Virus record (IMG/VR): IMGVR_UViG_3300036785_000382
Coordinates: 1-39,042 of that record
Length of the DNA: 39,042 nt
Strand: one strand, 5' to 3'
Source: a virus
Position 1 is the first letter of the stretch. Each line of letters starts with the position of its first letter. Position numbers and translations under genes: made by a program. The notes under the pieces were generated by a model that ran no database searches, was not told where the DNA came from, and saw only the letters and a program-made list of their open reading frames with translations. Positions 2,125 through 6,637 of the stretch are shown here, in pieces.

Positions 2125-2667
2125 ATGGCAACACCATCAATCAAACGAGTAACATCATCAAACGAAACACAAACAGGCGGAAGCAAGAAACCCCCAAACT
2201 TTGGCGACATCCTTGACATCCCCTCACAAGATGTATCCAGACCCAAACCTCTCCCTCAGGGTACCTATCTCTGTGTAGTTAAAGGGAACTATCGAGAAGA
2301 CAAATCCACAAAGAAGGGAACAGAGTTCTCTGAATACACACTTGGGATCCTTCAAGCCTTAGATGATGTAGACGAAGAAGCCCTTACCGCTGCCCTTACC
2401 AACGACAACGGAGAGCAGATGAAACTCACTGATAAGACCCTTCGAGTAACCATGTGGCACACTCCAGAGTCTAGATGGCGTCTGAAGAAGTTCCTCAATG
2501 ATCTTGGCATTCCTGAGGAAGATGACTCCGGAAATCCTATGTCCCTACGAGAGCGTATGCAGTTTGTCCCCAACTGCCAAGTCCTTGCTCATGTCAAGCA
2601 TGATCCATCAAATGATGGTGAGAGTATGTTTGCCAACGTTGATCGAACCGCTAAAGTCGAAGACTAA
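2125..2667 (+). CDS. DUF669-like candidate ssDNA-binding protein
   Basis: The 180-residue acidic protein has a disordered polar N-terminus (about residues 1-25) and then a beta-rich core beginning LPQGTYLCVVKG and KKGTEFSEYTLGILQAL, the pattern of the phage DUF669 family, whose members have been proposed to act as single-stranded-DNA-binding proteins. A helical section WHTPESRWRLKKFLNDLG follows, and the protein ends in an acidic tail (DRTAKVED), as in many ssDNA-binding proteins that recruit partners. It starts one base after the ATPase gene and is followed directly by the glycosylase-exonuclease gene, consistent with a replication/recombination role. No catalytic motif is seen. The family assignment is from memory of the pattern and needs a profile search. 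Confidence 0.6.
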   Translation: MATPSIKRVTSSNETQTGGSKKPPNFGDILDIPSQDVSRPKPLPQGTYLCVVKGNYREDKSTKKGTEFSEYTLGILQALDDVDEEALTAALTNDNGEQMKLTDKTLRVTMWHTPESRWRLKKFLNDLGIPEEDDSGNPMSLRERMQFVPNCQVLAHVKHDPSNDGESMFANVDRTAKVED

Positions 2668-3678
2668 ATGAACATTGCCATTGTAGGCGAGGCTTGGGGC
2701 TGGGCGGAAGAACGCCAACGCAAGCCGTTTGTTGGGCCTACTGGATGGCACTTAAACAAGATGCTAAAGGAGGCAGGCATCCGCAAGGGTGACTGCTTCC
2801 TCACCAATGTCTTCAACCTACACCCGCCAGGAAATGATATCGCTGAGCTATGCGGACCTAAAGAGCTTAGTATTAAGGGCTATCCATCGCTTGGACAGGG
2901 CTCAGGATATATACTCGCCAAGTACAAGAAAGAGCTTGATCGACTTAGAGATGAGATGATGGAGGTTTACCCCAACCTTATTATAGCCATGGGCCGTACA
3001 GCTATGTGGGCTTTCTTAGGCAAGACGGGCATTACTAAGGGCCGAGGAGTAGTTCAGTACTCAACTCATACAGTTAGTGAATTTAAGGTTCTACCGACCT
3101 ACCATCCAGCAGCCTCCTTTAAAAACCATTCGATTAGGCCCATCATAATAGCAGACTTAATCAAAGCATCAAGAGAGTGTGAATACCCAGACATCCGCCG
3201 ACCATCCCGTAAGATATGGATCGAACCTACCTTGGAGGATCTTTATGACTTTGAAGAAAAATACATCAAACCTGCTGAAAGACTTGCTATCGACATTGAG
3301 ACAAGTGGAGTATACATTACACTTATCGGCATTGCCCCCTCTGGAGAAATTGCAATCGTTATTCCATTCCCTTACCCAGGACGATCAACTAGAGCTTATT
3401 GGCCTAATGTCATTACTGAAGCTAAGGTTGGAGCCTTTATCGCTAGAATACTTCGAGGGCCGATTCCCAAGACCTTCCAAAACGGACTCTATGACATCAG
3501 CTTCCTCTGGCGAAGTGCAAGAATGAAGGTATATAATGCTGAGCATGATACTATGCTCCTGCATCATGCTTTGCAACCTGAGTCACTTAAGAACTTAGGT
3601 TTCTTAGGAAGCGTCTACACTGATGAACAGAGTTGGAAGTCCATGCGAGTCAAGTCTACAATCAAGAGAGAGGACTAA
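2668..3678 (+). CDS. Uracil-DNA-glycosylase-like domain fused to 3'-5' exonuclease half
   Basis: Residues 1-170 resemble family 4/5 uracil-DNA glycosylases: VGEAWG (6-10) with KPFVGPTG (19-26), TNVFNLHPPGND, IIAMGRTA, and the second active-site motif YHPAAS (145-150). The CxxC pairs that hold the Fe-S cluster of family 4 enzymes are absent. Residues 200-336 are the start of the DNA polymerase I proofreading fold: motif I AIDIET (D209, E211), motif II QNGLYDISFL (N272, Y275, D276) and HDTMLLHHAL (D294). The protein ends with KRED just before motif III should occur. Motif III (YNGLDCCV) is at residues 24-31 of the polymerase gene downstream. The product probably assembles with that polymerase to form a complete exonuclease. 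It begins directly after the previous stop codon with only a weak ribosome site. Confidence 0.8.
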   Translation: MNIAIVGEAWGWAEERQRKPFVGPTGWHLNKMLKEAGIRKGDCFLTNVFNLHPPGNDIAELCGPKELSIKGYPSLGQGSGYILAKYKKELDRLRDEMMEVYPNLIIAMGRTAMWAFLGKTGITKGRGVVQYSTHTVSEFKVLPTYHPAASFKNHSIRPIIIADLIKASRECEYPDIRRPSRKIWIEPTLEDLYDFEEKYIKPAERLAIDIETSGVYITLIGIAPSGEIAIVIPFPYPGRSTRAYWPNVITEAKVGAFIARILRGPIPKTFQNGLYDISFLWRSARMKVYNAEHDTMLLHHALQPESLKNLGFLGSVYTDEQSWKSMRVKSTIKRED

Positions 3679-3679
3679 A

Positions 3680-4054
3680 ATGACACCAAGAGAAGCTCTA
3701 CATCTGATAATAGAAACTGACCAATGGAAGGTTGATTATTGGGGAAGAAACCCGCGCCTTATGACAATAACAGCATTAGGAACAAGAGAGTTTATAGAAT
3801 CCATTCAAAAAGCTCTCAAGGGCGGAATGAGATACAGCCCTAGCGAAAGTCGAAGACCACCATACGATTATAACTATGCTTGGATACCGGCGGATGATGA
3901 TAGAGAGGAGATAGCTAAGCTAATGATCGATATAATGAAAGAGTTTGATCCATTTAGAAAGATAATGTATGCCAAGAAGCTACTACATGAAATAAGAGAA
4001 GAAAGACTATGGTCAAGATTATCGACACCAGCCAACTCTCGCCAGAAGATCTAA
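3680..4054 (+). CDS. Unknown 124-residue protein inserted between the two polymerase parts
   Basis: I do not recognise this protein. It begins MTPREALHLIIETDQWKVDY, has an aromatic patch PPYDYNYAWIPADDD near its middle and a basic helical C-terminus (MYAKKLLHEIREERLW). No HNH, GIY-YIG, LAGLIDADG or intein motif is visible, so it is not an obvious homing endonuclease. I chose the ATG at 3680, because GAGAGGA lies seven bases upstream and the previous gene stops at 3678; a longer in-frame start at 3623 would overlap the exonuclease. It shares 46 bases with the polymerase start. The 330 bases between the exonuclease stop and the polymerase ATG are a multiple of three, so the two polymerase halves remain in the same frame. 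Confidence 0.65.
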   Translation: MTPREALHLIIETDQWKVDYWGRNPRLMTITALGTREFIESIQKALKGGMRYSPSESRRPPYDYNYAWIPADDDREEIAKLMIDIMKEFDPFRKIMYAKKLLHEIREERLWSRLSTPANSRQKI

Positions 4055-5502
4055 CTGCCTCTGAGAGAGAAGCTTGCTACAACGGCTTGGACTGCTGCGT
4101 CACCGCAGAAGTCCTAGAAGCCCTGTTGCCTCAACTCAACGAGCAAACAAGCGCCACTTATGAGTTCTCTAAATCACTTCAAGGCCCCGTCCTACACATG
4201 GGCCTAACTGGCATCCTTGTCGACCAGTTTCGCAAGACCGATGTCATAGACAACTACTACGAGATTATAGAGCGTCTAGACGGATATATCACTAGCTTAG
4301 CCGAAACAGCAGGTCTCCCTTATCTTAATTGGCGAAGTTATAAAGACCTACAAAAGCTATTCTACGATCGATATCAGGTCATGCCTATTCTATCAAAGAC
4401 TGGTCAACCTACTCTAAATAGAGCTGCTCTTGAGAAAATCGAAAGCTACTACATTACATTAACGCTACCTATGATCTATCTCATAAAGAAAATTCGAGAA
4501 CTACAGAAACGCATTGATGTTCTAAGAACCGAAATCGATCACGATGGTCGAATGAGAACATCATATAACATAGCCGGAACTACGACAGGCCGCTTTTCAT
4601 CTTCGCTCTCAGAATTTGGCACAGGTGGCAATCTACAGAATATAGAAGAACATCTTCGATCAATCTTCATAGCTGATCCAGGAATGAAGCTAGCAAATTT
4701 TGATGCTGAACAAGGGGAGAGTCGAGTTGTCGGAGCTATTGAGTGGAACTTATTCGGGGACAGCACATATTTGGACGCATGTGAATCAGGTGACTTACAC
4801 ACCGCAGTCGCCCGAATATGCTGGCCAGACTTGGGTTGGAAAGGTACATTGGAGATCGACCGAGCCCTTGCCGAAGAACCTTACTATAGACATTATTCTC
4901 GACGATTCATGTGCAAGAAGCTTGGTCATGGCGCTAATTACGGAGGTAGAGCTCAAACACTCTCTGCCGAAACTAAGACTGAACTTCCAATTGTCGAAGA
5001 GTTCTGTAGAAATTACCACAGCGCCTTTCCTGCCCATCGCCTCTGGCACCATTGGGTAGAAAGCCAACTCGCCAAGACAGGAAAACTTACATCTCTTACC
5101 GGTAGACTTCGCCATTTCTTCGGCCGTAGAGATGATCATAAGGTTATCCGAGAAGCCATCGCCTACGATGCACAAGGCTCGTTAGTCGATATTGTAAATC
5201 GTGGTATGTTGAAGGTGTGGAACAGCCAATGCTGTCAGCTACTTTTACAAGGTCATGACTCCATAATAGTTCAATATCATGAGGAGGAAGAAGATGAACT
5301 TATACCTAAGATCCTGTCTCTGCTACACATTCCAATTTCCCTTGCTAATCAAAGAACGCTGATGATACCATATGGCTGTAAAACAGGCTGGAACTGGGGT
5401 GAATATGGCGGCACGAACCCAGATGGCCTCAAAAAGTATGCACCCGGTGATAAACGGCGCCGGACGCCGCCAGTGCACATCTTGGATAGAAAAGTTCGTT
5501 GA
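4009..5502 (+). CDS. Family A DNA polymerase, carrying exonuclease motif III at its N-terminus
   Basis: This is the replicative polymerase. All family A polymerase signatures are visible: TTGRFSSS (residues 191-198), motif A FDAEQGESRVVGAIE with catalytic D232, motif B RRFMCKKLGHGANYGG (299-313), and motif C QGHDSII with catalytic D417. Residues 24-31, YNGLDCCV, are the Y-x3-D exonuclease motif III, whose partners I and II are in the upstream glycosylase fusion. At 497 residues it lacks most of a proofreading domain and any 5'-3' exonuclease, so it depends on the upstream product for proofreading. The ATG at 4009 follows GAAGAAAGACT and lies inside the 3' end of the 124-residue gene. The 3' end overlaps the start of the next gene by about 100 bases. 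Confidence 0.93.
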   Translation: MVKIIDTSQLSPEDLTASEREACYNGLDCCVTAEVLEALLPQLNEQTSATYEFSKSLQGPVLHMGLTGILVDQFRKTDVIDNYYEIIERLDGYITSLAETAGLPYLNWRSYKDLQKLFYDRYQVMPILSKTGQPTLNRAALEKIESYYITLTLPMIYLIKKIRELQKRIDVLRTEIDHDGRMRTSYNIAGTTTGRFSSSLSEFGTGGNLQNIEEHLRSIFIADPGMKLANFDAEQGESRVVGAIEWNLFGDSTYLDACESGDLHTAVARICWPDLGWKGTLEIDRALAEEPYYRHYSRRFMCKKLGHGANYGGRAQTLSAETKTELPIVEEFCRNYHSAFPAHRLWHHWVESQLAKTGKLTSLTGRLRHFFGRRDDHKVIREAIAYDAQGSLVDIVNRGMLKVWNSQCCQLLLQGHDSIIVQYHEEEEDELIPKILSLLHIPISLANQRTLMIPYGCKTGWNWGEYGGTNPDGLKKYAPGDKRRRTPPVHILDRKVR

Positions 5503-6637
5503 CTATACATCAAACTTGGAGGTACCTGAAATATGGAGAAGATGGTCAGCAATCTCGATGTTGGGAGCGGTAATGGAGCAAAGGGTATGGATGGAGACAG
5601 GTGGAAACTTGTATCCGAACTTGTACGTGTTTCTAGTTGGCCAACCAGGGATGGGCAAGTCTCGATCTATCATGGCAGCTTCGAACCTAGTGAGGGAGGC
5701 CCTACCGGACATATTCTTTGGTGCCACGTCAATGACTCGGGCATCTCTATCGGACTATATGAACGAGGCAAAGAGGATAATCCCAAAGATCCCCCCGCCA
5801 GCAATCGAGTTCAACAGCCTCGTCTGCATCGCCGACGAATTTAGCGCCTTTATGCATGAATATGACTCGGCACTAGTAGCGGCACTTGTAGAGTTCTATG
5901 ATGTAAATCCCTATTCCGAGGGTCGTCGTGTAAGTAACATTCGTATCAAGATAGCACGTCCTCAGCTTAACATCTTAACTGGTTCAACACCTTCAAATCT
6001 TATCCACACCCTTAAAGACTATGTCTGGGATCAAGGTCTGATGTCCCGTGTAATCATGGTTCACTCAAGTGAGAGACCAATAATCGACGTATTTAATGAA
6101 CCAGCTCGAGACAGACCTCAGTCTCTAATAAATGATCTCAAAATTATCTGGCTTCTAGAAGGGCAATTTAACGTTACAACCGACTTCGGCATTGCCATGC
6201 ATAATTGGAAGACAGGCGGTTTTGAGCCAGTTCCAGACCACCCTAAATTAGCACACTATGCATCTCGCCGATTTGCACATCTGCTAAAGCTAAGTATGAT
6301 AGCCTCAATTGATCGTTCAAACGAACTTATCGTTAGATTAGAAGACTTCAACAGAGCTAAGGGATGGCTGATAGAGGCAGAAGTGACTATGCCCTTCATC
6401 TTTAAAGAGGGTTCGATTGTGCCTGATAGCAAAATCATGGATGAGATAGCTCACTTTGTTCGAACTCGAGGCGAAGTAAGCGAGCACCTAGTCCGCAACT
6501 TCGCTCGTCAGCGAGTCCCAGCTATGCATATCGAATATATAATGAAAACTATGGAAGGAGCTAGAATTTTAGTGGTCAAAAATGTAGCTCCCAAGACTGG
6601 CCTTAAGACGTTTGTGGCTCCGCAAATTTCCAGCTAA
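5405..6637 (+). CDS. P-loop ATPase, DUF3987-like primase/helicase-associated protein
   Basis: With the start used here the product is 410 residues. Walker A is GQPGMGKSRS, Walker B is VCIADEFSAF, and LTGSTPSNLIHTL looks like the sensor strand; DQGLMSRVIMVHS follows. This is the core of DUF3987/YfjI-type ATPases found in phage and plasmid replication modules, some of which act as helicases or primase partners. A C-terminal winged-helix-like section (SEHLVRNFARQRVPAMHIEYIMKT, split by eye) may bind DNA. Several Met codons (5372, 5405, 5423, 5438) are possible starts; 5405 has GGGGTGA just upstream. The gene overlaps the polymerase end and, at its own 3' end, the convergent endolysin gene by 35 bases. 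A replicative helicase role is inferred because no other helicase is in the window. Confidence 0.7.
   Translation: MAARTQMASKSMHPVINGAGRRQCTSWIEKFVDYTSNLEVPEIWRRWSAISMLGAVMEQRVWMETGGNLYPNLYVFLVGQPGMGKSRSIMAASNLVREALPDIFFGATSMTRASLSDYMNEAKRIIPKIPPPAIEFNSLVCIADEFSAFMHEYDSALVAALVEFYDVNPYSEGRRVSNIRIKIARPQLNILTGSTPSNLIHTLKDYVWDQGLMSRVIMVHSSERPIIDVFNEPARDRPQSLINDLKIIWLLEGQFNVTTDFGIAMHNWKTGGFEPVPDHPKLAHYASRRFAHLLKLSMIASIDRSNELIVRLEDFNRAKGWLIEAEVTMPFIFKEGSIVPDSKIMDEIAHFVRTRGEVSEHLVRNFARQRVPAMHIEYIMKTMEGARILVVKNVAPKTGLKTFVAPQISS

Follow-up and report, generated by a model that had tools for sequence, protein, structure and literature searches.

Genes split by mobile elements are usually regarded as recent and scattered cases. 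In T4-like phages, described genes-in-pieces include nrdA of phage Aeh1, which is associated with mobE, and the polymerase gene of an Aeromonas phage, which is present as 43A and 43B with seg43 (PMC2988022). LUZ24-like Pseudomonas phages encode a DNA polymerase part I and a DNA polymerase part II (PMC3890496, NC_010325), and the polymerase of the OM43 phages MEP401 and MEP402 is also encoded by two open reading frames (ORFs) (PMC10580990). Another split polymerase is found in the virus record IMGVR_UViG_3300036785_000382 of IMG/VR, of which positions 1 to 39,042 were analysed (hereafter the window). Here, two genes, A and B, located between positions 2668 and 5502, together encode a uracil-DNA glycosylase (UDG) domain, a 3'-5' exonuclease and a family A polymerase, and the cut lies within the exonuclease active site. 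The locus is likely to encode a permanently fissioned UDG-exonuclease-family A replicative polymerase with a hot insertion slot at the break, a proposal that combines several steps. An ancestral single fused gene would have been broken a single time, in the linker that connects exonuclease motifs II and III, and the two chains would join after translation to form a DEDD-type site, to which A contributes three acidic residues and B one. Stop-start coupling would tie the synthesis of A and B together, and conserved tails born at the break may aid docking. The A/B junction tolerates insertions and in most relatives is occupied by unrelated small genes, including HNH, GIY-YIG and LAGLIDADG endonucleases; the insert of the window would be a highly diverged, possibly inactive descendant of a LAGLIDADG-type homing endonuclease without a role in proofreading. 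The original fission itself may have been caused by the entry of such an element, which is the weakest step of the proposal.

Gene A (2668..3678, on the plus strand like all features of this locus) encodes a protein of 336 amino acids. Residues 2-154 match PF03167 of Pfam (E=1.3e-17) and correspond to a UDG-superfamily domain at window positions 2668-3129; this domain forms the main part of the protein and was missed by an earlier note on this DNA, which had been made from the sequence alone. The remainder contains the N-terminal part of the exonuclease with motif I (DIET; D209 and E211; 3292..3300) and motif II (NGLYD; N272 to D276; 3481..3495), followed by a C-terminal tail, TIKRED (3658..3675), whose conservation was assessed by alignment with fused relatives. 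Gene B (4009..5502, 497 amino acids) starts with the conserved sequence MVKIIDT (4009..4029; M-K-I-I-x-T in relatives), continues with exonuclease motif III (YNGLD; Y24 to D28; 4078..4092) and matches PF00476 from residue 88 (E=3e-30). It also has the motif A Asp, the motif B Lys and Tyr and the motif C His-Asp of family A polymerases. In phrog_17, a DNA polymerase profile, gene A covers positions 549-788 and gene B positions 809-1235, the match resuming in gene B about 20 profile positions past the end of gene A. All three DEDDy motifs, I (DxE), II (N...D) and III (Y...D), are therefore present, but across two chains. The ORFs and the residue positions confirm what the earlier note had claimed about this distribution, with motifs I and II in the upstream gene and motif III opening the polymerase gene. 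Its placement of the break in the linker before motif III agrees with the alignment with fused relatives and with a weak PF01612 match in gene A of the close relative L007 (E=0.0066), which covers the 173-position profile only up to position 123, the match of a fused relative extending to position 165; the early end of the L007 match indicates that the exonuclease fold is truncated without gene B. The 330 nt between the stop codon of gene A and the ATG of gene B, the common frame of the two halves and the 124-codon gene between them were likewise confirmed. However, the common frame is a coincidence, since the gap of the window contains many stops in frame with the halves and the gaps of relatives (e.g., 329, 337 and 339 nt) occupy all three frames.

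Searches of IMG/VR yielded 31 relatives for gene B and at least 545 for gene A, 80 of which were kept. The comparison comprises 94 distinct loci including the window, some of which are near-identical to one another and thus represent fewer independent lineages. The break lies at the identical point in all 94 loci and none of them is fused; throughout, gene A ends in a TTIKRED-like tail and gene B starts with MKII.T. The other approximately 93 contigs come from many metagenomes, and the same break is found in the cultured Caulobacter phage Kuura, in its relative L119 and in contigs of metagenome-assembled genomes (MAGs), a recurrence that excludes a sequencing error. The gap of Kuura holds two unrelated small ORFs, and the description of this phage gives only a DNA polymerase hit (PMC9959647). 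Since the search patterns were biased toward the split clade, a separate search was made with the fused sister group, in which exonuclease motifs II and III could be verified within one open frame in 78 of 80 loci; the remaining two are a broken or truncated contig. A tree of 47 proteins places all split members in one clade with a support of 100 in the Shimodaira-Hasegawa-like approximate likelihood ratio test (SH-aLRT), at the base of which Kuura-like phages and the Sphingomonadales MAG contig L127 are found, and the split is explained by one change. To decide whether the split arose once, this tree was used in place of an earlier one, which was rooted on four distant fused proteins and had long branches. 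A single clade and one change on the tree mean that the fission is old and fixed and is neither an error nor a recent insertion. The split long predates the insert of the window, which contradicts the scenario implied before, namely that this insert caused it. Relative to their closest fused counterparts, the split proteins possess about 20-25 additional residues around the break, which end or begin with the conserved tails of the two genes. K333 of the gene A tail is kept in 92 of 93 sequences, residue 5 of gene B is I or V in 95 of 95, and T7 is present in 91 of 95. A search of plasmids with gene A (approximately residues 95-336) gave no match. The fission of this clade is unusually deep and crosses an enzyme active site; the open-access literature searched yielded no description of a family A polymerase with its break inside the exonuclease site, nor of the split seen in this clade.

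The space between the two genes is highly variable. Among the 94 loci, the spacing is below 10 nt in 26, between 10 and 60 nt in one and between 60 and 1224 nt in 67, and slot occupancy changed at least 17 times, as counted on the earlier tree. L007 and L008 provide a clean empty-site comparison, as their slots are empty although their halves are 82-88% identical to those of the window; L009, L029 and L034 are as close to the window as these two, yet carry a different insert. Inserts of at least 100 nt are present in the slot in 66 of 93 cases, compared to one of 71 at the polymerase/DUF3987 junction and 17 of 76 at the junction between the AAA gene and the next gene, both of which served as controls. 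By blastp, 47 of the slot ORFs stand alone and the others fall into 14 small groups. The identified proteins belong to HNH_3 (n=7), DUF7768 (n=6), DUF3102 (n=2), GIY-YIG (n=1) and LAGLIDADG_3 (n=1), and DUF1937 and helix-turn-helix (HTH) proteins are found among the others. In two loci, ends of the neighbouring genes are duplicated: the first 22 or so residues of the HNH slot gene of L037 (L037:40-546) repeat the N-terminus of the polymerase (VKILDTLTLE versus MKIIDTLNLE), and the insert of L061 terminates in VKRDE, which copies the tail of gene A. These duplications suggest insertion through recombination at the junction.

The insert of the window (3680..4054) encodes a protein with a predicted LAGLIDADG-like fold. 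No sequence-level relative of it was found in phages or IMG/VR. Inserts of 100-130 amino acids are frequent in the subclade of the window, and the slot proteins of the same size from close relatives can be grouped into a loose family with a common GG turn, a Trp strand and a final helix; the link of the window protein to this family is weak, L013 being its clearest partner. A related core family of inserts turned up only in the A-B slot, and three of four members tested match phrog_5046, which is annotated as HNH endonuclease (E-values of 2e-4 to 3e-3). MAFFT sets the sequence LHLIIETDQW of the window protein against the LAGLIDADG helix of L117. It is degenerate compared to the signature, and neither a recognisable LAGLIDADG motif nor a Pfam match is present. 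The AlphaFold2 (AF2) model of the insert has a predicted local distance difference test score (pLDDT) of 86.7 and a predicted template modelling score (pTM) of 0.77, with elements in the order a-b-b-a-b-b-a-a. The top Foldseek match in the PDB is the LAGLIDADG enzyme I-Vdi141I (3e54; probability 0.72, TM score 0.47, E=0.18), and the nine best matches among viral models are all endonucleases, of which five bear the name LAGLIDADG or I-AniI-like (probabilities of 0.60-1.00, best E=2.6e-3). Predicted element order, length class and the acidic residue D14 are shared with I-Vdi141I and L117, whereas the degenerate helix and the lack of a significant sequence match set the insert apart from LAGLIDADG enzymes. 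Judged by its modelled fold, it is reasonably probable that the insert is a diverged single-motif LAGLIDADG-type protein. D14, toward the end of helix 1, is a candidate for the catalytic acid; endonuclease activity is doubtful, though, because several sister inserts lack an acidic residue at this position. The suggestion of the earlier note that the insert may be a mobile element is therefore supported in kind, as endonucleases of the HNH, GIY-YIG and LAGLIDADG types are clearly present in the gaps of relatives, while in the window the assignment is made by predicted fold only.

Several results weigh against the proposed explanation. The insert matches no family in Pfam or PHROG, and a profile of the insert family gave no meaningful match to PDB sequences. 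Its AF2 alignment consists of 11 rows, which were assembled partly by slot position, and the Foldseek E-values are modest for both the viral models and the PDB. Only nine of 69 scanned slot proteins are identified endonucleases. In addition, the junction before gene A (window 2667/2668) is similarly variable, 49 of 82 loci having 100 nt or more inserted there, so the slot is hot but not unique. When the L007 halves were modelled as one chain through their TAA, AF2 gave a poor result (pTM 0.53, junction pLDDT 30-45), from which no conclusion was drawn. Gene A is bordered by two insertion-tolerant sites. The majority of slot ORFs lack any match to endonucleases, and this fact, together with the DUF7768, DUF3102, DUF1937 and HTH proteins among the occupants and the variability upstream of gene A, would fit a simpler account in which the slot genes are ordinary accessory genes, homing endonucleases are a minority that did not cause the split, and the insert of the window is an unrelated small protein. 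This account differs from the proposed one only on the identity of the insert and the cause of the fission. However, this one slot harbours each of the three common homing-endonuclease folds and the insert of the window is LAGLIDADG-like by prediction, which makes the accessory-gene account the less likely one, though it deserves serious consideration.

Both halves of the polymerase are maintained. D209, E211, N272 and D276 of gene A do not vary among the 93 exonuclease halves, nor do Y24, N25 and D28 among 95 gene B sequences. Among close relatives, the ratio of nonsynonymous to synonymous substitution rates (dN/dS) is 0.07-0.15 for gene A and 0.07-0.13 for gene B. The polymerase residues D232, K303, Y311, H416 and D417 of gene B are conserved wherever the residue is present, with one exception, a Phe in place of Y311. 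The UDG-type motifs GEA.G and HPA (HP(A/S)) of gene A are conserved across relatives as well, and this intact motif set alone could preserve gene A if the split had killed proofreading, leaving the exonuclease as a relic while A was kept as a UDG and B as a polymerase. A relic would have lost some of its motif residues, but the six residues D209, E211, N272, D276, Y24 and D28 are invariant in all 93-95 loci of a deep clade and the whole of gene A is under strong purifying selection; loss of proofreading is thus improbable. The Asp of motif III is required for metal binding in DEDD exonucleases. Since the motif residues are invariant, the fold is truncated without gene B and the metal-binding Asp is supplied by gene B, A and B would be expected to associate in trans to form one exonuclease site. 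The claim that the two products must assemble is accordingly a well-supported inference from sequence. The fusion of the UDG domain to the exonuclease half suggests that uracil surveillance is linked to proofreading.

The junctions themselves argue for two separately translated proteins. In the 25 empty-slot junctions that were tabulated, the start codon of gene B lies at -4 nt in 11 (ATGA-type) and at -1 nt in eight (TAATG or TGATG); in three, the genes abut exactly (0 nt), and in another three, 2-3 nt separate stop and start. Overlapping or abutting stop and start codons are the usual anatomy of termination-reinitiation. In the window, coupling is probably passed along gene A, the insert and gene B, because the insert ORF begins 1 nt after the stop codon of gene A, and its last 46 nt (4009-4054) also belong to gene B. 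The ORF of the insert had been credited with a ribosome site of its own; the ORF stands, but the site is not independent, as the ribosome-site-like sequence GAGAGG (3668-3673) sits within the final codons of gene A and the start is coupled. It could be argued that a single polypeptide is produced via an intron, an intein, stop readthrough or a frameshift, given that the halves of L007 and L008 share one frame with a lone TAA between them, that phage polymerases can carry introns and inteins, and that an intein-like insertion is present in L177 of the fused sister group. Yet in most empty-slot loci the start of gene B overlaps the stop codon in a frame other than that of gene A, which makes a fused product unlikely, and no obvious slippery site is present. 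The halves are separate ORFs in 94 of 94 loci, and the conserved start codon and new N-terminus of the polymerase fit separate translation. The many in-frame stops of the window gap and the lack of an Rfam match at E<=1 within positions 2500-5600 speak against an intein or a group I intron, and a single polypeptide by any of these routes is very improbable. Least probable of all is a role of the inserted protein in bridging or stabilising the halves, a bridging factor having also been suggested: its translation falls between that of the halves and proteins of its size recur in the subclade, but 26 of 94 loci, including L007 and L008, have the same split without an insert, and the inserts found elsewhere are unrelated.

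Downstream of the locus, a DUF3987 gene (PF13148, 3.8e-8; window positions 5372-6637) overlaps the polymerase gene by 131 nt, and this overlap is preserved in nearly all relatives. On the minus strand, genes for a GP7-type major capsid protein (PF20911, 30029-31072) and a head-tail connector (PF12236, 32267-33994) form a podovirus-like virion module on the strand opposite to the polymerase locus.

If the permanently fissioned polymerase is accepted, one active-site cut has apparently long been fixed over many phages, while its gap was repeatedly emptied and refilled. The clade thereby offers a natural series for studying how an enzyme tolerates and keeps a split active site, as well as ready-made two-part polymerases to which proofreading could be given or withheld by adding a second protein. 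For annotation, it should be noted that gene B alone resembles an exonuclease-deficient polymerase, which it probably is not. More tentatively, the phages may form a clade with an obligate two-chain polymerase whose proofreading site is shared between the chains, and in which proofreading and uracil handling reside on a dissociable subunit whose dose could differ from that of the polymerase; if true, proofreading could be tunable by stop-start coupling and by the current slot gene.

In the fused sister group, sequence comparison shows other sites to be broken independently. In L182 (1343-1684) and L203 (3626-3967), an HNH gene (PF13392, 2.8e-10) parts the UDG from the exonuclease-polymerase in an independent fission. 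In L197, L198, L199 and L202, the polymerase is cut just before motif A (approximately residues 549-563 of the fused protein), and the small genes in this gap encode a dUTPase (L202, 6.6e-20), a Lon-C/ChlI-like protein (L197) and an HTH protein (L198). The intein-like insertion of L177 (3001-6231), which is shared by L178, L179, L180 and L183, is in frame, comprises about 285 residues and is located at motif B (HG^C...VTGN^SNYGG).

Fused UDG-exonuclease-polymerase proteins are known from the phages ctMlz233, Mel-JY34, vir526 and LS06. The proteins of ctMlz233 (UOF77826.1) and of Microcystis phage Mel-JY34 (XAI96477.1) have the same domain order as the locus described here and are homologous throughout, but they are single chains and lack the additional residues at the break. 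The LUZ24-like phages share with the window a family A polymerase whose exonuclease is encoded upstream by a gene of its own, with small ORFs separating the two. Their part I, however, contains all three exonuclease motifs (DLEGDG, NILDYD, YCLQD), the cut lying between domains, whereas in the window it lies within the exonuclease active site and the N-terminal half carries a UDG domain. With the entire exonuclease in part I, LUZ24 is excluded as an example of the same split. In MEP401 and MEP402, a small unknown ORF is likewise located between the two ORFs of a family A polymerase, but the exonuclease is whole and the cut falls within the polymerase domain (PMC10580990). The T4-like systems resemble the locus in that an essential phage gene is split, with a free-standing homing endonuclease or another insert in the gap; nrdA/mobE also displays UAAUGA-type coupling as seen here, and the nrdA pieces assemble into an active enzyme (PMC2988022). 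As in genes-in-pieces, the polymerase gene of the window is split relative to its relatives and its pieces are still under selection. The T4-like cases concern other genes, namely a ribonucleotide reductase and a family B polymerase, and the fission described here differs from them in being fixed over a deep clade and in persisting without any endonuclease.

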